Both the position numbers and the translations under genes were made by a program. DNA of 64,000 nucleotides, taken from positions 4,283,001 through 4,347,000 of the forward strand of contig NZ_CP154260.1 of the NCBI RefSeq assembly GCF_039545795.1, given 5' to 3'. The first letter of the stretch is position 1. Each line of letters opens with the position of its first letter. This DNA comes from Chitinophaga niabensis (GTDB lineage Bacteria; Bacteroidota; Bacteroidia; Chitinophagales; Chitinophagaceae). Below the pieces are notes generated by a model. The model made no database searches, had not been told where the DNA came from, and saw only the letters and a program-made list of their open reading frames with translations. Shown one piece after another: positions 43,814 through 52,800 of the stretch.

Positions 43814-44464
43814 CTAAAAACTGAATATCTTTTCCAACTCTATCAGGTGCAATCCGGGTGTGAGTACTTTCGGCGCTTTGGCTAATTTCTCAGCGAGTGT
43901 AAATGTGGGTAATGGGCGGAACTTCCTGATCAATCCAAAACAATTCAGCAGCTCTAATATACCAGCGGTTATTCGTTCACCCAGGCGGTCCGTATCCTTT
44001 CGCTGCAATAATCCCGGCCTGAAAATAATGAATTGTTCAAATGCCAGGCTGGTGATCCTGTCTTCCAGGTTACCCTTTACTTTGGAATAAAATACATTGC
44101 TTTTGGCGGAAGCACCATAGGCGGATAGCAGCACTACTTTGGAAACGCCGTTCCGTTTGGCGATCTCAGCAAATTTTGCAGGGATATCATAATCTATATG
44201 CCACTGTTTTTCTCTGGAGCCAGCTGTTTTCATCGTAGTTCCCAGGCAGGAAAACCACACATCCCCTTTGATGAGGTTCGATTCATTTTCCAATTTATCA
44301 AAGTCAATCGTGATCTCTACCAGTTTTGGATGAACGATTCCGGCGGAACGGCGCACAAATATTACAACCGCTGTATAGTCAGGGTCCTGCAACAATACCT
44401 GAACAAGATCTTTGCCCGTGGCGCCTGTTGCTCCTATGATCAATGCTTTCATATCTCTGATCAC
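43814..44464 (-). CDS. NAD(P)-binding atypical SDR (HTATIP2/TMEM-like)
   Basis: A 216-residue Rossmann protein. The dinucleotide loop GATGATGKDLVQVL is at residues 10-23, then VIFVRRSAG, WFSCLGTTMKTAGS and VVLLSAYGASAKSNVFYSKVKGNLE. The Y-x3-K pair (YSKVK) resembles that of extended SDRs of the Oxidoreductase HTATIP2 type. The likely role is NADPH-dependent reduction of a small electrophile or quinone; the substrate is unknown. Its ATG overlaps the stop of the DJ-1 gene by 4 bases, which makes it the last gene of the minus-strand enzyme cluster. Confidence 0.85.
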   Translation of the reverse strand: MIRDMKALIIGATGATGKDLVQVLLQDPDYTAVVIFVRRSAGIVHPKLVEITIDFDKLENESNLIKGDVWFSCLGTTMKTAGSREKQWHIDYDIPAKFAEIAKRNGVSKVVLLSAYGASAKSNVFYSKVKGNLEDRITSLAFEQFIIFRPGLLQRKDTDRLGERITAGILELLNCFGLIRKFRPLPTFTLAEKLAKAPKVLTPGLHLIELEKIFSF

Positions 44465-45276
44465 TTTTTAATCAGCCAACTTTCCACTGCTCTTGAAAAA
44501 TCAGCCACATCAATAGGATGCCTGCTGGTAACCAGGTTCCCCTCTGTTACCACTGGTTGATCCGATACAATTCCTCCCGCATTCTTCAGATCAACCTGTA
44601 TGTTCCAATAACCTGTCAACTTTCTGCCTTTCAAAATATCAGCGGAAGCTAATACAACAGGTGCGTGACAGATAGCCGCGATCAGTTTTCCGGACTTGTT
44701 GAAGTCCTGTATGAATTTTATCACGTCCTTATCGTATCGCAGGTTATCCGGATTCCATGCACCACCAGGAATGAACACAGCATCGTAATCCCCTACTTTG
44801 ACCTGATCTGCAGTACGGTCAAATTTCACCCAGCCCACAGGCTGCAGGTATTGTATGGCCATGATATGTGTTTTTGCCATTTCAGGATACATAAGGCCAT
44901 ATCTCTCGGGGGCTGGACTGTATTTTGGCGCCACGATGTCTACTTTAGCACCCAGTTGTTTGAAATACCATACGGGGCCTAATAATTCAATTTCCTCAAA
45001 ACCATCGGCGGCAAGCACGGCTATTCTTTTATCCTTTAATACTGTTGCATCCTTTACCGGGGTAAAAAAGAATGCCCGTAATGCCTCGTTTCCGGGAGCA
45101 TTCAGCAATTGCGATACAGGCATGTTAACAACAACTGAAGGAGAGGCCAGCTGATTCAATACAGACAGTTCATGGTCACTGATCTGTGCGGCTCTTACTC
45201 TATCCTGAGCCGTTGCATTAAATGCAGTAATTATTCCTATTGTGCCTGTCATGATGATTAGTTTAATAGATCTCAT
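44461..45276 (-). CDS. Exported DJ-1/PfpI family protein
   Basis: A 271-residue protein with a signal peptide (1-22, ATAQ) and a DJ-1/PfpI fold: KRIAVLAADGFEEIELLGP, GDYDAVFIPGGAWNPDNLRYD and the nucleophile elbow LIAAICHAPVVLASADIL with Cys-His (about residues 202-203), then SRHPIDVADF. Members act as glyoxalase/deglycase-like enzymes, chaperones or amidases; export suggests a periplasmic role. It overlaps the next gene by ATGA and starts 4 bases after the ABM-like gene ends, so the three genes are surely co-transcribed. Confidence 0.87.
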   Translation of the reverse strand: MRSIKLIIMTGTIGIITAFNATAQDRVRAAQISDHELSVLNQLASPSVVVNMPVSQLLNAPGNEALRAFFFTPVKDATVLKDKRIAVLAADGFEEIELLGPVWYFKQLGAKVDIVAPKYSPAPERYGLMYPEMAKTHIMAIQYLQPVGWVKFDRTADQVKVGDYDAVFIPGGAWNPDNLRYDKDVIKFIQDFNKSGKLIAAICHAPVVLASADILKGRKLTGYWNIQVDLKNAGGIVSDQPVVTEGNLVTSRHPIDVADFSRAVESWLIKK

Positions 45277-45280
45277 TTTA

Positions 45281-45958
45281 TTATGGTTTTTTAGGTGAAA
45301 ACGGTATAAGCCTGTGAAGGCCGGTTTGAAAAGGTTGTTTTTTGATACTGGTATTCAGATAATCAATCACAGGTTGTATGGGAGGAAAATTCAGGTGATA
45401 CTGAAAGGCATCTTCGCTCCTGAATTTTTCATAAGTAACAAACCGGGTACTGTCCTCTTCAAGTTGTGAAAGTTGGTAATTAATAACACCCGGTTCACTT
45501 CGGAACTGTGGCATGGCAGTGTGATACACTGCTTTAAAATTGCCTTCGGTGCCCTCCCTGCTATCCACAAATAACATGATGGTGACCGGCTTATCATCTT
45601 TTTTGGGCGCCTTTCGCCATTCATTTTTTGAAATCGGCTCCAGGTCTTTTATGTAGATCTTTTCTGCAGGTTGTATCAGCCGTATCTGGTTTAATTTCCA
45701 CCCATTTTCCAGTGCGCCTTTGCTGCTCCATCTTTCTATAAGCCATAGTATGGAGGGGTTCTCCTGCTCATAATATGCTTCTGCCATAATGTTACTTTCA
45801 AGACCAATAGCATACCTCACATACTTACCAAGCACTTTGCAGACCTTTTTCTCATAACCCTTTTTTACTTCGTACCGGGTTAATACGGCTACTTCCTGTG
45901 CCGCTACATATGTGCTGCTTAACAAAAGGCACATTATTACAAATACAAAAGCCTTCAT
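45281..45958 (-). CDS. Exported protein with two ABM-like (dimeric alpha/beta barrel) domains
   Basis: A 225-residue protein with a signal peptide (1-20, VAAQ). Two halves each look like an antibiotic-biosynthesis-monooxygenase (ABM) ferredoxin-like domain: residues 22-110 (VAVLTRYEVKKGYEKKVCKV and SILWLIERWSSKGALE) and 125-215 (VTIMLFVDSREGTEGNFKAV and RFVTYEKFRSEDAFQYHLN). A fused pair would form the barrel within one chain. Members oxygenate quinoids or bind small molecules without cofactor. It opens a second minus-strand unit with its own palindrome and promoter-like sequence 20-65 bases upstream. Confidence 0.8.
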   Translation of the reverse strand: MKAFVFVIMCLLLSSTYVAAQEVAVLTRYEVKKGYEKKVCKVLGKYVRYAIGLESNIMAEAYYEQENPSILWLIERWSSKGALENGWKLNQIRLIQPAEKIYIKDLEPISKNEWRKAPKKDDKPVTIMLFVDSREGTEGNFKAVYHTAMPQFRSEPGVINYQLSQLEEDSTRFVTYEKFRSEDAFQYHLNFPPIQPVIDYLNTSIKKQPFQTGLHRLIPFSPKKP

Positions 45959-46029: not shown

Positions 46030-46776
46030 TCAGGAGGCTATTTGCTGTCCTATTTCCCGCAACAGGTCCGAAACTGCCTGCGGCTGAGACAGGAATGGAG
46101 AGTGGCTTGTATTGACCGAGTAAACTGATGTGATGCCAGCTGTTGCTATCATACGATCCTGCAGGTGCTGTGAGATCACTATATCCTGGAGTGTTTTGAT
46201 ATACACTTTTTCCACCGTACCAAAGTTTTCATGGGTCAACGTCACCTTGTTGGAAAAAGGAATAGCCGGCTCTGCACGATAGTTGGCAAGTACCATGTCT
46301 TTAGCAAGCTCTGAACCGTCGTTGATAAAGAGATAAGTGAGACTGTCCGGTTTCACATCAAGCGTCAGTTGATCGTGTGAAGGAACTAATGCAGGGCCTA
46401 ATTGGGAGTGCGGATCTGAGTAAGCAAGATCGGTAAGTGCTTCTCCGGATGCAGGAAGAAAAGCCCCGATGTAAACCAGCTTACTGATCTTATGAGGAAT
46501 TTCTTCGGCCACCTGGGTTATCACCATCCCGCCCAAGCTATGTCCTACCAGGATGATCTTCCCTCCTTGTTCCGAAATTGCTGCTACAACCTTATCAGTG
46601 TAGACATCCAACCCCAGGTTTTGCGCAGGCGTTTTGTCTGCGCCATGGCCCGGTAATTCTACCACAATCACTTTGTTGCCTTCTTTCTGCAGATTGGTGC
46701 AAACCGTATCCCAAACATAGGGAGCCTGCCATGCGCCGTGTACCAGCACATACGTTTGTGAAGTTGTTTTTTCCAT
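46030..46776 (-). CDS. Alpha/beta hydrolase, esterase of the hydroxynitrile lyase/methylesterase type
   Basis: A 248-residue cytosolic hydrolase. YVLVHGAWQAPYVWDTV holds the oxyanion-hole strand, VGHSLGGMV is the nucleophile elbow (Ser near 82), and the catalytic His is in NTSHSPFLSQP near 230; an acidic partner is probably in the segment after QDRM. This layout matches the EstC/salicylate methylesterase-like group. It starts 16 bases after the CMD gene and is part of the minus-strand enzyme cluster facing the kinase/regulator pair. Confidence 0.87.
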   Translation of the reverse strand: MEKTTSQTYVLVHGAWQAPYVWDTVCTNLQKEGNKVIVVELPGHGADKTPAQNLGLDVYTDKVVAAISEQGGKIILVGHSLGGMVITQVAEEIPHKISKLVYIGAFLPASGEALTDLAYSDPHSQLGPALVPSHDQLTLDVKPDSLTYLFINDGSELAKDMVLANYRAEPAIPFSNKVTLTHENFGTVEKVYIKTLQDIVISQHLQDRMIATAGITSVYSVNTSHSPFLSQPQAVSDLLREIGQQIAS

Positions 46777-46791: not shown

Positions 46792-47358
46792 TTATTGAAC
46801 ATCTGGTGCAGGCATATCAAATCCATTTAAGATCATGGCGATGAGGCTGTAGCCACTTACCAGGAAGAAGAGTTCTGCCACTCCTGCCAGCCCCAGCAAC
46901 TTTACTGCCTGTTTATAAGTTGAAGCGGGAACAACATGACCTTTCACCAATACATCAGCAATATTATGAGCAATGGTTTCCTGCTCATTTAAACCATAAG
47001 GATGACCACCTGCTGCCAGCGATGCTATAATATCATCCGGAAGGCCCAAAGCTGCTGCTGTGATCTCATGCGCATACAGTTCAAAGCGGGCGCCAAAAGC
47101 AGCACCTACAGTAAGTATAACCACTTCACGCACCCGCTTGTTAAGTGTTGCGTGCATATCAATAGCCCGCAAAAAGCTCAGCGCTGGTATGCCGAACTGC
47201 GGATAATGCAGCATCGGCGGGAAAGGACCTAACAATGCCCCCTGCGCATCAAGCATGGTTACCTGGCTTTGGCTCCTGCCAACAAGACTGGCTATCTCAT
47301 CATGTACATGGCGGATCTCAGGGCTAAGGGTATCCGGTGGTAATGGTTTTATACGCAT
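46792..47358 (-). CDS. Carboxymuconolactone decarboxylase family protein
   Basis: A 188-residue all-helical protein of the CMD/AhpD superfamily: VREVVILTVGAAFGARFELYA, HEITAAALGLPDDIIASLAAG and NEQETIAHNIADVLV. The AhpD redox pair CxxC is absent, so peroxidase function is unlikely; a decarboxylase or lactone-opening role similar to PcaC is possible. It begins 2 bases after the cupin gene ends, clearly an operon arrangement. Together with the cupin and the hydrolase it suggests breakdown or detoxification of an aromatic or lactone compound (inference). Confidence 0.87.
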   Translation of the reverse strand: MRIKPLPPDTLSPEIRHVHDEIASLVGRSQSQVTMLDAQGALLGPFPPMLHYPQFGIPALSFLRAIDMHATLNKRVREVVILTVGAAFGARFELYAHEITAAALGLPDDIIASLAAGGHPYGLNEQETIAHNIADVLVKGHVVPASTYKQAVKLLGLAGVAELFFLVSGYSLIAMILNGFDMPAPDVQ

Positions 47359-47360
47359 GG

Positions 47361-47930
47361 CTAGATGATTTCATTGGTAAACTGACCATCGATCAGCATA
47401 AAGATCATGCGGCAGATCTTGCCGGAGCGGTTCGCCCAGGCATGATTTGTACCGTTCTGAATAACAATATCACCCGCCTGAATAGTTGTCTCTGCCCGGT
47501 CAAGGACCAATGTTATCTCACCTTCAAGTACTATCCCATAATCCACCGTTTTTGTCCGGTGCATTAAAGGATGAGGAGCGGCTTCATCTGATGTGGAGGC
47601 CTTTGCATCTCCCATAGACCTGAATTTAGCTACTGCGTCTGCTGAAGTAAGTTTCCTTATTTCTTCTCCTTCCGGCGGAAATTCGATCACCCGGATGCGG
47701 GTACCACTTTTAGGAGGCGGTAAAACCAAACCTGGTTCATCCGGCTCGTTCGGCTGAGCCCGAATTAATGCAGGTGTTTCTAACGTATGCCATACTTCAA
47801 AGAAAGTAGGACCACCAACGCCGCCAACAAGTTGTGTATGCACAGGAGGGGCATCTGAAATAATGATGGCCTTTCCATCTGCATCATGCCCTGTTACAAT
47901 GCGTCTGAATGTTTTCTGTTGCTGATCCAT
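47361..47930 (-). CDS. Cupin domain protein
   Basis: About 189 residues from the ATG at 47930, which follows the 2TM gene stop at once; a longer frame to 47960 would overlap that gene and begins less plausibly. The cupin barrel is in the C-terminal half: HRTKTVDYGIVLEGEITLVL (cupin motif 1 region) and GDIVIQNGTNHAWANRS (motif 2). The metal ligands are partly replaced (one His in each motif visible), so metal binding is uncertain. The N-terminal half has VRG-like substrate residues. Second gene of the cluster. Confidence 0.85.
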   Translation of the reverse strand: MDQQQKTFRRIVTGHDADGKAIIISDAPPVHTQLVGGVGGPTFFEVWHTLETPALIRAQPNEPDEPGLVLPPPKSGTRIRVIEFPPEGEEIRKLTSADAVAKFRSMGDAKASTSDEAAPHPLMHRTKTVDYGIVLEGEITLVLDRAETTIQAGDIVIQNGTNHAWANRSGKICRMIFMLIDGQFTNEII

Positions 47931-47931
47931 T

Positions 47932-48156
47932 TTAATTGTTCTTGGGTTTTTTGAAAACAAATACGCCGAGGTAGTGGAAGAATACGCCTATTGCCCATGC
48001 TGGTGTAGACCATAATGGCCAGGGGTAGGTCCGGTCCGTCAGATACCATACAAGCCAGATAGCCGGGGCGACAAGCAGGAATACAATTAAGTGGATCCTG
48101 AAGCCCTTTTTAGGATCGATAGGCGTGGTGGTGCCCCATTGAGTTGATTGTGTCAT
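47932..48156 (-). CDS. Small 2TM-domain membrane protein
   Basis: A 74-residue protein with two membrane helices (about 21-39, RIHLIVFLLVAPAIWLVWYL, and 50-67, TPAWAIGVFFHYLGVFVF) and short charged ends, a layout known as the 2TM domain in Bacteroidota. The role is unknown; other members are fused to or sit beside sensor kinases. It is the first gene of the minus-strand cluster, 235 bases from the divergent kinase gene. Confidence 0.8.
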   Translation of the reverse strand: MTQSTQWGTTTPIDPKKGFRIHLIVFLLVAPAIWLVWYLTDRTYPWPLWSTPAWAIGVFFHYLGVFVFKKPKNN

Positions 48157-48178
48157 ACAATTGGTTTTGGTGTTGTAT

Positions 48179-48194
48179 GACTACTTATGTGCCA
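48179..48194 (-). promoter_or_regulatory. Possible sigma-54 promoter of the 2TM-cupin cluster
   Basis: On the minus strand a perfect -24 box TGGCAC (48194-48189) is followed at the right distance by a poor -12 box (TAGTC instead of TTGCW). The predicted start is near 48168, about 12 bases before the first gene. The case rests mostly on the upstream dyads and the divergent sigma-54 activator. Confidence 0.35.
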
Positions 48195-48258
48195 TAAAAG
48201 TCCAGATCATTAATGCACTGAAAAACAATTTTTTAGATCCCCATATCAAAGGTTGGTT

Positions 48259-48276
48259 ACTCCGAAACATTGGAGT
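48259..48276. promoter_or_regulatory. Enhancer-like dyad D1
   Basis: ACTCCGAAACATTGGAGT: 5-bp arms ACTCC/GGAGT around an 8-bp centre containing GAAACAT. It is followed by TT, as is D2. Located in the divergent gap, roughly 90-110 bases upstream of the predicted cluster start. Confidence 0.6.
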
Positions 48277-48287
48277 TTAATAGCAAA

Positions 48288-48306
48288 ACTCCGGAAACAT
48301 CGGAGT
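48288..48306. promoter_or_regulatory. Enhancer-like dyad D2
   Basis: ACTCCGGAAACATCGGAGT: 6-bp arms ACTCCG/CGGAGT around GAAACAT, 29 bases from D1. Two copies of the same dyad with a shared GAAACAT centre look like paired sites for a dimeric regulator. Confidence 0.6.
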
Positions 48307-48390
48307 TTACCTACTGCGAATAAAATTCTCTATATTGTATAAAATGCTCTTCGAAGGTTTTGTGATGTTATAGCCTTAAAAAACAAAACT

Positions 48391-50853
48391 ATGCTCAGGC
48401 TGACGCTTATGTACATACTTTTCGGTGTACTGATGTCTTTTAACGGACAATCCCAAAGCTCCGCTAAAAAAGGACCTTCAGGCTATTCCTATTATCACCC
48501 GTCTAAAGACAAAGAATCATGGCAACGGCTGAATTTGTTGCTCAGCTCTACTTATCTCCTTGTTGCAAAGGAAGGCCAGGGCAGCCCGGACAGTTGTTTG
48601 CATGCAGCCAGCCGCTCCCTGGGTTTGAGCACGCTCCCTGTACTGGCAGAAGGGATCGGTGATCAGGAATTATTTGAACAATCGCAATGGGTTGACCGGC
48701 ATGAACCAGGTGTTGGTATTCGTTTGCTTTCAAAGGCAACAGGTAGGAAACACCTGCAGTTGCTAATACTGCTGGGCTCCTACTATGCATTTCAACCTGG
48801 TCATAATAAAGATAGCGTTGGATATTTTCTGCACAAGGCGATAGCAGAAAGCAGATCTTTGAAGGAGGAAAGACTTGGCAGGATAGCACTTTGCCTGCTC
48901 GGAAAAATATATGTGGAGAAAAACGACAGCAAGGGTGATTCTATTTATAATGTCCTGATCAATCAATGCCGAAAAGCCGGTGATAAAGAAACAGAAGCAA
49001 GGGCATATGCTTACCGGGGTATATATACCTCTCCCACACGGGCTACCCTGCTAACAAAAGCTGCTGACCAGCAGAAAGCAGCGGATCTGTATCATCAACT
49101 TGGCAATACAGAAGCCGAGATAAATATATTAACCGATCTGGGTTATATGCTCGTTGTAACCGGGCAATTGAAAACTGCAAATGAAGTGTTCTTAAAAGCG
49201 CTTACACTTGCTGAAGCGATAAACTATCCTTATATCCACTATAATACGGAGGCGCTTGCCATGGTTAATGTGTATCAAAGCAAATTTGGGGAACCATTAC
49301 GATATGCACTTCAAACAATCAGAGTTGCAGAAAGCTGCCGTGATAGTATCGGCTGGGGCTATTTTTATAGCCGCATGTCGCATCTTTACGAAATGGAGGG
49401 GAGATGGAAAGAGAGCGCTGATATGGCACAACTGGCAGTTAAAAGATTTATCGCAGACCGTAACCCCACAGTATACAATGCGTTACATCCGATAGTAATC
49501 TATCTCAGTGAACAAGGGCGTGCAAAAGAAGCCTACAACCTCGCGCTGGATGCGGTAAAAAAAGTAGGCATACCTCAGAATATTTCCGAAAAAATATTTT
49601 ATTGCCATACACTTTCCAGCTGCCATCTATTCATGGGCAACCTCGATCTGGCAGAGATGTACGCCCGGGAAATGGACTCACTGGAAACTATAGCTGAAGG
49701 CATCAGGGGGCCGCTTCGGAGAACTTTGATCAACGATCAGTTCGCGTACATTCATTTTAAGCGGGGGCAGTACCGGAAATCAAGAGAATTACTGAAAAAA
49801 CGTTTTGCAACTATCTTCATTGCAGGCAGGGACCTATCATCTGATCTGGTTGCATACCGTTGGCTGATCAGTATTGATTCTGCACTGGGCGACAAAGCTG
49901 CTGCAGTATCCCACTACGAAAAATACACACAACTGCTCGACTCCAATTTCAGGATAACCAAAATAAGACAGGCAGAGGAGCTACAGGTGATGTACGAAAC
50001 ACAGGAAAAGGAAAACCAGATCACACTATTAAATGAACAGGCAACCCTCCAAAAAGCCAATTTCAAACAGGCCAAACTGGTAAAAGACCTAACGCTTGCA
50101 GGCATTGCTGCTGTAATAATCATCGCGGGCTTATTGTACTGGCAGAACCGCTTGAAGCAAAAAAACGCCATAGTGATCACGCACAAAAATGAACAATTGC
50201 AGCAGTTGCTGACCGATAGAGAATGGCTATTGAAAGAAATACACCATCGTGTAAAAAATAACCTCCAGATAGTAATGAGTCTGCTCAATTCGCAGGCAGT
50301 GTATATAAATAATGATGCCGCTTTTACTGCCATCCAGGATAGTAAACGCAGGGTGTATGCGATGTCCCTCATCCATCAAAAGCTTTACCAGTCTGAAAAT
50401 ATTGCCACCATTGCCATGTCTGAATATATCAACGAATTGGTGAACCATGTTCAGGACAGTCTTGATACCAGGAACCGGATAGTTTTTACACAAAACATCG
50501 AATCCCTGGACCTTGATGTATCGCAGGCAATCCCCCTGGGACTGATCATCAATGAGAGCGTTGTTAATGCCATTAAGTATGCATTCCCGCATGACAGGAA
50601 AGGCATGGTGAGTATCAGCCTGCGGCATGAAGGGACTGATCAGTTATTGCTGAATATATCGGACAATGGCATTGGTTTACCAGCGGACCTTGATATTATG
50701 GAGCATAACTCACTGGGACTTGACCTGGTAAGAGGGCTTGCAAAACAATTAAAAGGCCGCTTCAATATTACAAGCGATAATGGCCTGCATGTAACGATCC
50801 GATTTGCAGTTATCAACAAACAAATTTCGGAGGAAGCTTCAGACAATCTTTAA
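48391..50853 (+). CDS. Sensor histidine kinase, TPR sensor plus HWE/HisKA_2 kinase
   Basis: An 820-residue membrane kinase. Signal peptide 1-22, then TPR-like helices (about 30-540; AYAYRGIYTS, EAINYPYIHYNTEALAMVN, KAAAVSHYEKYTQLLDSNF), a coiled segment, one membrane helix (about 570-588, LAGIAAVIIIAGLLYW) and the kinase. The phospho-acceptor region LLKEIHHRVKNNLQIVMSLL (about 612-631) is of the HisKA_2/HWE type, followed by a HATPase with NESVVNAIKYAF and ISDNGIGLP. The periplasmic TPR part presumably senses a ligand or protein. It is followed after 12 bases by the response regulator, its likely partner, and is divergent from the enzyme cluster. Confidence 0.93.
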   Translation: MLRLTLMYILFGVLMSFNGQSQSSAKKGPSGYSYYHPSKDKESWQRLNLLLSSTYLLVAKEGQGSPDSCLHAASRSLGLSTLPVLAEGIGDQELFEQSQWVDRHEPGVGIRLLSKATGRKHLQLLILLGSYYAFQPGHNKDSVGYFLHKAIAESRSLKEERLGRIALCLLGKIYVEKNDSKGDSIYNVLINQCRKAGDKETEARAYAYRGIYTSPTRATLLTKAADQQKAADLYHQLGNTEAEINILTDLGYMLVVTGQLKTANEVFLKALTLAEAINYPYIHYNTEALAMVNVYQSKFGEPLRYALQTIRVAESCRDSIGWGYFYSRMSHLYEMEGRWKESADMAQLAVKRFIADRNPTVYNALHPIVIYLSEQGRAKEAYNLALDAVKKVGIPQNISEKIFYCHTLSSCHLFMGNLDLAEMYAREMDSLETIAEGIRGPLRRTLINDQFAYIHFKRGQYRKSRELLKKRFATIFIAGRDLSSDLVAYRWLISIDSALGDKAAAVSHYEKYTQLLDSNFRITKIRQAEELQVMYETQEKENQITLLNEQATLQKANFKQAKLVKDLTLAGIAAVIIIAGLLYWQNRLKQKNAIVITHKNEQLQQLLTDREWLLKEIHHRVKNNLQIVMSLLNSQAVYINNDAAFTAIQDSKRRVYAMSLIHQKLYQSENIATIAMSEYINELVNHVQDSLDTRNRIVFTQNIESLDLDVSQAIPLGLIINESVVNAIKYAFPHDRKGMVSISLRHEGTDQLLLNISDNGIGLPADLDIMEHNSLGLDLVRGLAKQLKGRFNITSDNGLHVTIRFAVINKQISEEASDNL

Positions 50854-50865
50854 GCAATAGATCTT

Positions 50866-52800
50866 ATGCGTAAAAAAGTGCTTATTGTAGAAGATGAATT
50901 TATAGTAGCCAATGATCTGCGGTTAATACTAATACGCGCAGGCTACGGTGTAACAGGTATTGCCGCTTCAGTTGAGGAGGCCAATGAACTTCTGCAAAAG
51001 TATAAACCAGATCTTGTAATCCTGGATATCCGGTTAGAAGGAAAACTATCAGGTATTGACTTTGCCCGGAAGCTAAGAGCTGAAAATATTGCTTTTATTT
51101 ACCTGTCAGCTTATGCAAACCAACAAATACTGGAAGAAGCAAGAACAACCGAGCCATATGGTTTTCTTGTTAAACCATTCAGGGAACAGGACCTGCTGGT
51201 TACGCTGGATATTGCATGGTATCGTCATACCAATAGTCTTGAATCAAAACTGCGGCAGGAAGAACATTTACAAAAACAGTTAATCGCAATAAGCAATGAA
51301 AGCTCAGATGCTCCGGAAAAATTACTGAAGGTGGCCCGGGCCATACAGCCTTTTATACCATTTGATCTCATTACATCGGGGATCAGGCCAATGGATGCTG
51401 AGCAGTTTGGCGATACGGGATATTTACGTATCGGGTTTGATGAATACCAGTTTATTGGTGGAAATGAATTAATGACGATTACAGGCATGAATAAAACCCA
51501 GCTTTCTGCAATCATTGGAGACAGTCACACGGGTATCTATAACGATGCAGTAGTCTCTTCGCTGCAAAGATTAATGCTGGATCATTTCCAATTGAAGACC
51601 TATCTCGTATTTCCGGTGACTTTAGGCTACGGACTGTCTGTTCACTATTTTTTATATAGCCGGCAGCCTGGTATTTATACCAAAGAACACATGGCCTTAT
51701 TGGGTCGTTTGAAAATGAACCTGGAGGAGTTGGCTGAAAAAACAATTTATTATAAAGCTCCATCAGCTGTGGTTAAGAAACGGCCTGTTTCTGCCAATAA
51801 GATGCAGGACGAAGCGATAGGATTCAAAAGCATTATTGGAACTCATCATCTCTTGTTGTCTGCATTAGATCTTGCAGCACAGGTGGCACCATATAGCACT
51901 TCTGTTTTAATACTGGGTGAGAGTGGTACCGGAAAGGAAAAAGTGGCCCAGTCCATTCACTTATCTTCACCAAGAAGGAACGGGCCTTTCATAAAGGTAA
52001 ACTGTGCAGCAATTCCTCCAACATTGGTGGAATCCGAACTCTTCGGCCATGAAAAAGGTGCATTTACCGGCGCTATTGAAAAAAGGAAAGGAAGGTTTGA
52101 ACAGGCTGATGGTGGAACTATTTTTCTGGATGAGATCGGAGAACTGCCACTTGGCATGCAGGTGAAGTTGTTGCGCGTTTTACAGGAAAGAGAGATTGAA
52201 TATGTAGGAGGCAGATCACCTGTAAAAGTTGACATCCGTGTTGTAGCTGCTACAAACCGGAACCTCGAAAAGGAAGTAGCAAACGGAAATTTCCGGCTTG
52301 ATCTGTATTACCGACTAAACGTTTTCCCCATCACCCTGCCCCCGTTGCGGGAACGAAAAACGGATCTTGAGGCACTGGCAGTATTTTTCGCAAACAGGTT
52401 TTGCCGATCGTTCAATAAGCCATTCAATGGCATTGCTCCATCAATGATAGAAGAATTGTACACCTACAACTGGCCGGGGAATATTCGTGAACTCGAAAAT
52501 ATCCTGGAACAGGCCGTTGTTCTCAACGATGGCAAATCAAAATTGCAATTAGTGCGAAGGCTTTCGTTAGCAGCTTCTAACCAGTCTGCAAACCCTGGTA
52601 TTCATACCCTTGAAGGGATAAAGCACATACAGCGGGAAACAGAAAGAGACTATATCATTTCCATTCTCAAAAAAACAAAAGGCCGGATACGGGGAGCTAA
52701 TGGCGCTGCGGAATTATTGCATATTAAACCTACTACCCTCGAATCAAAGATGGCCAGGTTGAATATAAGAAGGCAGGATTTCATCAATGTGGAGGGATAA
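50866..52800 (+). CDS. Sigma-54-dependent response regulator (REC-GAF-AAA+-Fis)
   Basis: A 644-residue NtrC-like activator. Receiver at 1-120 ([18 protein letters not shown]; phospho-Asp in VILDIRLEG near 56), a GAF-like region (about 140-290), the AAA+ domain (about 320-560) with Walker [14 protein letters not shown] (near 352), the sigma-54 contact loop GAFTGA (near 400), Walker [15 protein letters not shown] and the arginine-finger region, then a Fis-type HTH_8 (about 595-640; [20 protein letters not shown]). It should activate RpoN promoters, with the paired dyads D1/D2 the obvious nearby sites. The extra GAF domain may add a second input. A strong terminator ends the operon. Confidence 0.94.

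Follow-up and report, generated by a model that had tools for sequence, protein, structure and literature searches.

Paired dyads covary with the recognition helix of an adjacent NtrC-type regulator in Chitinophaga and related genera

Introduction

In Chitinophaga niabensis, two similar dyads, D1 and D2, lie in the gap that separates a cluster of enzyme genes from the divergent genes of a sensor histidine kinase and an NtrC-family response regulator. The locus is part of a stretch of 64,000 nucleotides (the window; NCBI RefSeq assembly GCF_039545795.1, contig NZ_CP154260.1, positions 4,283,001 to 4,347,000 of the forward strand), and it raises the question of whether the dyads are the sites through which this regulator would act on the cluster and, if so, what in the protein and in the DNA sets their recognition. 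The original prediction, made from the sequence of the window alone, held at its core that the adjacent regulator uses the dyads as NtrC-type enhancer sites for the cluster. This assignment is supported by the conservation of the dyads and by the covariation of their bases with residues of the recognition helix of the regulator, and the locus as a whole is very likely to be a two-component NtrC-type switch acting on the cluster via D1, D2 and a sigma-54-like promoter box.

Results

Dyads and regulator in the window

The argument concerns the following elements of the window (bp, base pairs; HTH, helix-turn-helix).

48259 to 48276, no strand: candidate enhancer dyad D1, ACTCCGAAACATTGGAGT, promoter-proximal for the cluster (sequence, conservation)
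48288 to 48306, no strand: candidate enhancer dyad D2, ACTCCGGAAACATCGGAGT, promoter-distal (sequence, conservation)
48180 to 48194, minus strand: sigma-54-like -24/-12 box, TGGCACATAAGTAGT, its first base 38 bp before the start codon of the 2TM gene
50866 to 52800, plus strand: NtrC-family response regulator with a receiver (REC) domain, a sigma-54 AAA+ domain and a probable Fis-type HTH (profile scores, residue reading)
52726 to 52749, plus strand: codons of the recognition-helix segment KPTTLESK, residues 621-628, of which residues 1, 3 and 7 covary with dyad bases
48391 to 50853, plus strand: sensor histidine kinase with a TPR-type region, HisKA_2 and HATPase (profile scores)

Dyads and box are contained in the gap between the kinase start at 48391 and the start of the minus-strand 2TM gene at 48156, and D1, D2 and a minus-strand TGGCAC at 48194-48189 were each found exactly where the original prediction had put them. 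It had also set the dyads about 90-140 bp upstream of the cluster; they are indeed upstream, but slightly farther out, the start codon of the 2TM gene being some 103-150 bp away. The dyad centres are 29.5 bp apart, and 73 bp separate the centre of the nearer dyad from the start of the TGGCAC box. The pattern CTCCN{0,2}GAAACATNGGAG has two matches in the whole 7.2-megabase genome, both in this gap (reversed control, none), and the 19-mer of D2 matches itself alone in the whole genome with 3 mismatches allowed.

The regulator has the domains of a sigma-54 activator, with a receiver domain (PF00072, 71.1 bits; phosphorylatable aspartate D54), an AAA+ domain (PF00158, 240.7 bits) that carries the predicted GAFTGA at residue 398, and a probable Fis-type HTH, which we take to align residue by residue with that of Fis and which lies in a DNA-binding domain of about residues 585-644. 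This HTH scores 19.3 bits with HTH_8, under the Pfam cut-off of 22, and PF02954 is precomputed for some close relatives. RpoN is encoded in the genome (TIGR02395, 421.4 bits; ARRTVAKYRE box present), together with 16 matches to sigma-54 activator domains, 10 of them strong.

Conservation of the dyads with the regulator

Orthologues of the cupin gene of the cluster are present in 16 of 79 Chitinophaga genomes, and the kinase and regulator adjoin the cluster in 15 of these 16 loci, the window counted. Two dyads and a TGGCA[CT] box were found in all 15 cluster loci with the kinase/regulator pair (13 boxes called by pattern, those of L166 and L169 by eye), whereas L167 (G031), the sole cluster copy without the pair, has neither dyads nor box in 330 bp; the persistence of the dyads in syntenic loci was a test that the original prediction had set for itself, and it passed. 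The boxes placed by pattern lie 37-39 bp ahead of the 2TM start or, where an extra gene comes first, 74 bp ahead of that gene. Such an extra first gene is present in L038, L039, L168 and L169, being cNMP-binding in L038 and having similar first residues in the rest. The cluster is divergent from the pair in the window and L035, and downstream of the regulator in the other loci.

The same dyads are found where the cupin cluster is absent. In L040-L043, which have regulator relatives and no cupin cluster, the dyads precede the next gene and a box is present in all four; in L041 it is of the LysR type, and its counterparts in L040, L042 and L043 begin with similar residues. AraC-type genes take that place in L044 and L060. 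As the same dyads serve regulators beside LysR- and AraC-type genes, the system does not depend on these particular enzymes.

Following an earlier set of 31 stretches with 32 best regulator places outside the window, the genus set comprised all 67 regulator homologues, from 36 of the 79 genomes, of which 31 have a KP[ST]TLE helix (class A) and 36 do not (class B). By a rule that demanded a score of at least 17 of 20, a dyad pair with box accompanies 28 of the 31 class A regulators vs 0 of the 36 in class B. De novo palindrome counting ranked CTCCG-N7-CGGAG first in class A (12 of 31 loci); this palindrome was not among the listed top palindromes of the 36 class B loci, for which the counting gave nothing clear. 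Sister regulators with PP-type helices in L046-L048, L050-L055, L057-L059 and L062-L064 are without such dyads, although L062 reaches the weaker, box-free threshold, and palindrome counting revealed no operators of their own.

In other genera of the family the same association with the helix was seen, with a dyad pair and box at 23 of 31 KP[ST]TLE regulators vs 0 of 16 others. This set consisted of all 44 non-genus places of 50 listed, plus L081-L083, these three being taken from a further listing of at least 80 loci that are mostly AAA+ domain matches. Arms and box pattern were taken from the genus, the C/T choice at position 2 having been set after seeing the genus loci, and the helix was searched in slightly different tail lengths within and outside the genus. 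L286-L289 belong to class B and have no site, and among class A L083 (KPTTLEY) counts as a miss; three regulators with NP..TLES helices that have sites were counted as class B in this test, their CTCT arms being seen afterwards. When the box was dropped and arm variants were allowed, a dyad pair was found at 60 of 66 KP/NP/PP-[ST]TLE[SA] regulators vs 2 of 43 others, and four permuted or reversed control motifs were found at 1, 5, 6 and 10 of the same 66.

Covariation of helix residues with half-site bases

The half-site is CTCCGA for KPTTLES helices (33 of 43 with a site), CCCCGA for KPSTLES (8 of 8), CTCCAA for KPTTLEA (10 of 10) and CTCTGA for NP[ST]TLES (3 of 4). Three residue changes go with three base changes, each without exception by locus: T623S with T to C at position 2 (helix-3 S and position-2 C, 43/0/0/8), S627A with G to A at position 5 (helix-7 A and position-5 A, 41/0/0/10; A called by the majority of the four half-sites) and K621N with C to T at position 4 (helix-1 N and position-4 T, 51/0/0/3; T called at half or more of the half-sites, a threshold set after seeing the NP..TLES sites). 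These thresholds matter little, because the helix types are fully separated by the number of half-sites per locus that have the base. Among four half-sites, C at position 2 numbers 0-1 in KPTTLES, 0 in KPTTLEA and 3-4 in KPSTLES; A at position 5 numbers 0-2 in KPTTLES, 0 in KPSTLES and 3-4 in KPTTLEA; and T at position 4 numbers 0-1 with K and 2-3 with N. The crossed pairings, helix-3 S with position-5 A and helix-7 A with position-2 C, showed no positive link. At positions 2, 4 and 5 the scan gave preference to T/C, C/T and A/G, respectively, so that any other letters would be under-counted, but the choice within each favoured pair of bases was left free.

On a quick tree of 66 regulators, calculated with the last 75 residues excluded, helix and site changed equally often on the best tree: 2 and 2 times for T623S and position 2, 4 and 4 for S627A and position 5, and 1 and 1 for K621N and position 4. 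At least 3 of the 4 changes to KPTTLEA, and at least 1 of the 2 to KPSTLES, are forced by well-supported branches. L254 is a clear case: the locus has no cupin match, and its regulator, which the tree separates, at an open fork, from the remaining KPST regulators, still combines KPST with CCCC arms. The covariation of residues and bases ties the regulator to the dyads.

Geometry and the promoter box

In 50 of 54 loci the two dyads have their centres 29-33 bp apart, as against 19-22 bp in the other 4, and in 37 of the 54 the nearer dyad lies 113.5-119.5 bp from the box. These distances suggest a spacing of two or three helical turns with a preferred loop, the Rayleigh values ignoring relatedness and several distances being off phase.

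The window box has the GG of the -24 element, within TGGCAC at 48194-48189. Related boxes read TGGCATACAAATAGC and similar, and the family consensus is TGGCAYnnAAATRGn. The search pattern itself imposed GGCA, the C/T behind it, the -12 T, its non-T neighbour and the G that comes next; the GGCA tally is conditioned on that pattern and carries no evidence for the forced positions. The A-rich stretch was not forced, and A is found in 47 and 50 of 54 boxes at positions 10 and 11. Boxes outside the pattern also occur: in L268-L271 a box at 110-112 bp has TGGC[T/G] and, in the -12 position, TTG, whereas L274 and L275 have TGGCA at 105-108 bp. The box pattern is too strict because these six loci carry such variants. 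As the boxes of L268-L271 illustrate, subclades differ in their -24 and -12 elements.

A block C[CT]A[ACT]T[TC][GT]TATG, noted by eye, ends at the 2TM start codon in the window (48154-48164, minus strand) and is found at the same place in L034-L037 and L161-L165, L166 being different. A transcript begun at the sigma-54-like box would have a short 5' leader, taken up by this block.

The kinase

The kinase has a possible signal peptide and transmembrane segment (by eye), and the H-box of its HisKA_2 domain is at residue 616; the HisKA_2 and HATPase composition is found in the window kinase and likewise in L034 and L035. The original prediction had called it an HWE kinase, which did not survive comparison of the profiles: over the same residues HisKA_2 scores 88.7 bits vs 24.2 for HWE_HK (cut-off 22.8). 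WxE in the G1 box is a defining trait of HWE histidine kinases, and the G1 box here, SDNGIGLP (by eye), is without it; the HWE family was ruled out on the scores. Kinases beside close regulators (62-79% identical) have either about 54-69% or just about 34-43% identity to the window kinase (compared in L034, L038, L161-L165, L247, L249, L256 and L260). By these kinase and regulator identities, the sensor half is the faster to diverge or be replaced. The original prediction further supposed that the kinase might sense a compound on which the enzymes of the cluster act.

The enzyme cluster

The cluster facing the kinase consists of the following genes, all on the minus strand, with short gaps between them.

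47932 to 48156, minus strand: small membrane protein with a 2TM domain, its gene the first in the cluster (end read from sequence; 47937 in searches)
47361 to 47930, minus strand: cupin-domain protein (start codon read from sequence; 47933 in searches)
46792 to 47358, minus strand: CMD-like protein (sub-threshold PF02627 match)
46030 to 46776, minus strand: alpha/beta hydrolase (profile search, structural relatives)
45281 to 45958, minus strand: two-repeat ABM-domain protein (profile search)
44461 to 45276, minus strand: DJ-1/PfpI family protein (profile search)
43814 to 44452, minus strand: NAD(P)H-binding protein, probably the last gene of the cluster (adjacent also in L035)

The 2TM, cupin, CMD and hydrolase genes of the original prediction are all present, but the cluster had been drawn too short, as the ABM, DJ-1/PfpI and NAD(P)-binding genes come after the hydrolase. 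The CMD-like protein scores 18.9 bits vs a Pfam cut-off of 23, and a PDB sequence search with it gave no match. Among the relatives of the hydrolase with solved structures are hydroxynitrile lyase-like proteins, salicylic acid-binding protein 2 and a pyrethroid hydrolase; the enzyme domains and their nearest structures fix no single substrate. In L167, the hydrolase match spans residues 139-243 only.

Discussion

Computation establishes the architecture of this locus, shows that dyads and regulator are conserved together in several genera, and demonstrates that residues and bases covary. In the mechanism that these observations suggest, the kinase would phosphorylate the receiver domain of the regulator, and the Fis-type HTH would bind D1 and D2 as dimers, the dyad centres being about three helical turns apart. 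The operator would be read by three residues of the recognition helix, K621, T623 and S627, which go with the half-site C-T-C-C-G-A. The AAA+ domain would then contact RNA polymerase-sigma-54 poised on the TGGCAC box and open the promoter, which would drive the 2TM-cupin-CMD-hydrolase-ABM-DJ-1 cluster. We infer sigma-54 dependence from the type of activator, the spacing and the presence of RpoN.

Several observations weigh against this model. In the window, the GC of the -12 element is absent at the fixed spacing, the box ending in GT and reading TAGT, and the distance of 73 bp from nearer dyad to box is shorter than the usual one. The poor -12 box, which the original prediction had itself pointed out, is weak at the family level too: the final -12 base, which was not forced by the pattern, is C in 23, T in 15, A in 13 and G in 3 of the 54 boxes, such that the canonical C is not conserved. 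Position 5 is not strict with KPTTLES, as A is found in 27 of 132 half-sites, and 8 of the 33 KPTTLES loci have A in 2 of 4 half-sites and were scored as not A. The independent switches on well-supported branches amount to 1, 3 and 1 pairs for the three residues, all concordant and too few for significance, a number with which a sign test is unable to reach it. Not all class A regulators have the full site, the misses being 3 of 31 in the genus (L187, L188 and L195) and 8 of 31 outside it, where L280 and L281 furthermore pass only at the threshold and have weak second dyads. L195 has the dyads and is missing the exact box. A box-free rescan with arm variants found a dyad pair in 7 of the 8 out-of-genus misses, L081 only at threshold and L083 lying outside the rescan. 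Neither dyads nor a LysR-type gene just downstream were seen in L187 and L188, which have the KPTTLES helix, although both are present in the near relatives L040 and L189; these two loci seem to have lost target and operator together.

The regulator might bind the dyads while the TGGCAYNNAAATRG box is a lineage-specific element that is used differently from a standard sigma-54 promoter, and the lack of a conserved -12 C together with conservation of the unforced A-rich stretch before the -12 T would agree with this. It is nonetheless unlikely, given a regulator with GAFTGA and a full sigma-54 activator domain, a genome with RpoN, a TGGCA element and spacing that fit -24/-12, and the TTG at -12 in L268-L271. 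The other alternatives concern the dyads themselves. In most loci they come after the regulator stop codon and are capable of forming hairpins, as the hairpins of a transcription terminator or attenuator would be. We rejected this reading, which is highly improbable, as several clusters are on the strand opposite the regulator: the dyads of the window, L035, L246, L250 and L255 lie upstream of a cluster on that strand. Moreover, no T-run is fixed after the dyads (by eye), and their arms covary with the recognition helix of the regulator.

This covariation also bears on whether the dyads could be operators of another transcription factor encoded elsewhere, for which there is very little room, since the dyads accompany this regulator whatever the target gene or genus, and a change in its helix residues goes with a change in their bases. 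A chance pair is the reading to which we give least credence, a negligible one, already refuted by conservation. A scan of the genus for perfect pairs gave 13 distinct places, and 9 of these do not adjoin a listed regulator homologue, which would agree with chance; further, the reversed pattern had no matches in one genus scan but 15 forward matches in 4 genomes in the second. However, the remaining 4 places (the window, G015:C50, G028:C28 and G098:C10) stand beside this regulator family, and conservation and covariation are far above the controls. The dyads are best read as enhancer sites of the adjacent regulator.

NtrC/NtrB-type systems combine a REC-AAA+-HTH activator with paired dyads upstream of a -24/-12 promoter, and the window system is alike in having these parts. 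It differs from them in its TPR/HisKA_2 kinase, its distinct CTCCGA dyad, relaxed -12 element and adjacent target, and its occurrence in many genera of the Chitinophaga family. The NtrC-type logic is thus already known; what is new is the operator family and the natural recognition code predicted here. LuxO, also an NtrC-family regulator, is likewise described with paired sites at Qrr, which bind cooperatively and with high affinity and lie about 100 bp upstream of the site for sigma-54 (PMC11407668), but that system differs in signal pathway, dyad and targets, and the part of the report available to us describes alanine scanning and no residue-base covariation. Fis has the type of HTH that is predicted for the window regulator, and residues of its recognition helix touch bases that lie about 4 and 7 positions from the centre, with one critical base contact and a reading of DNA shape, according to the accessible part of PMC4784862; in the window regulator family, unlike Fis, three helix positions track three bases. 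A PDB sequence search with the HTH segment gave one spurious match and none usable. Comparative genomics has paired sigma-54 activators or promoters with their targets (PMC6615313, PMC4641369, PMC12316311), and the available portions of these sigma-54 regulon reconstructions contain no enhancer code of this kind, with no occurrence of Chitinophaga in the main text of PMC12316311 as far as it could be obtained. A search of full-text literature that lacks most subscription papers yielded no description of the CTCCGA operator family or of the helix code, which is weak evidence that none exists. Operators of Bacteroidota sigma-54 activators seem to be little described, none having been seen in that search.

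It is probable that HisKA_2/sigma-54 switches of this kind form a group of their own, found in many genera of the Chitinophaga family, and that three residues of the recognition helix act in them as a code for the enhancer address (K or N for C or T at position 4, T or S for T or C at position 2, and S or A for G or A at position 5). Such switches would have been re-addressed several times and re-plugged to different targets at nearly fixed geometry, giving orthogonal circuits whose operators can be predicted from the protein. Operator, spacing and reading residues are predictable from sequence. If confirmed, this would provide a protein-to-DNA code for Fis-type HTH activators, and would allow the assignment of targets to many related regulators among at least 4207 proteins at E <= 1e-120, some share of which has this helix. 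Spirosoma and Dyadobacter also have relatives of the regulator. The code, if confirmed, would also offer orthogonal switches for the bacteria of the Chitinophaga family.

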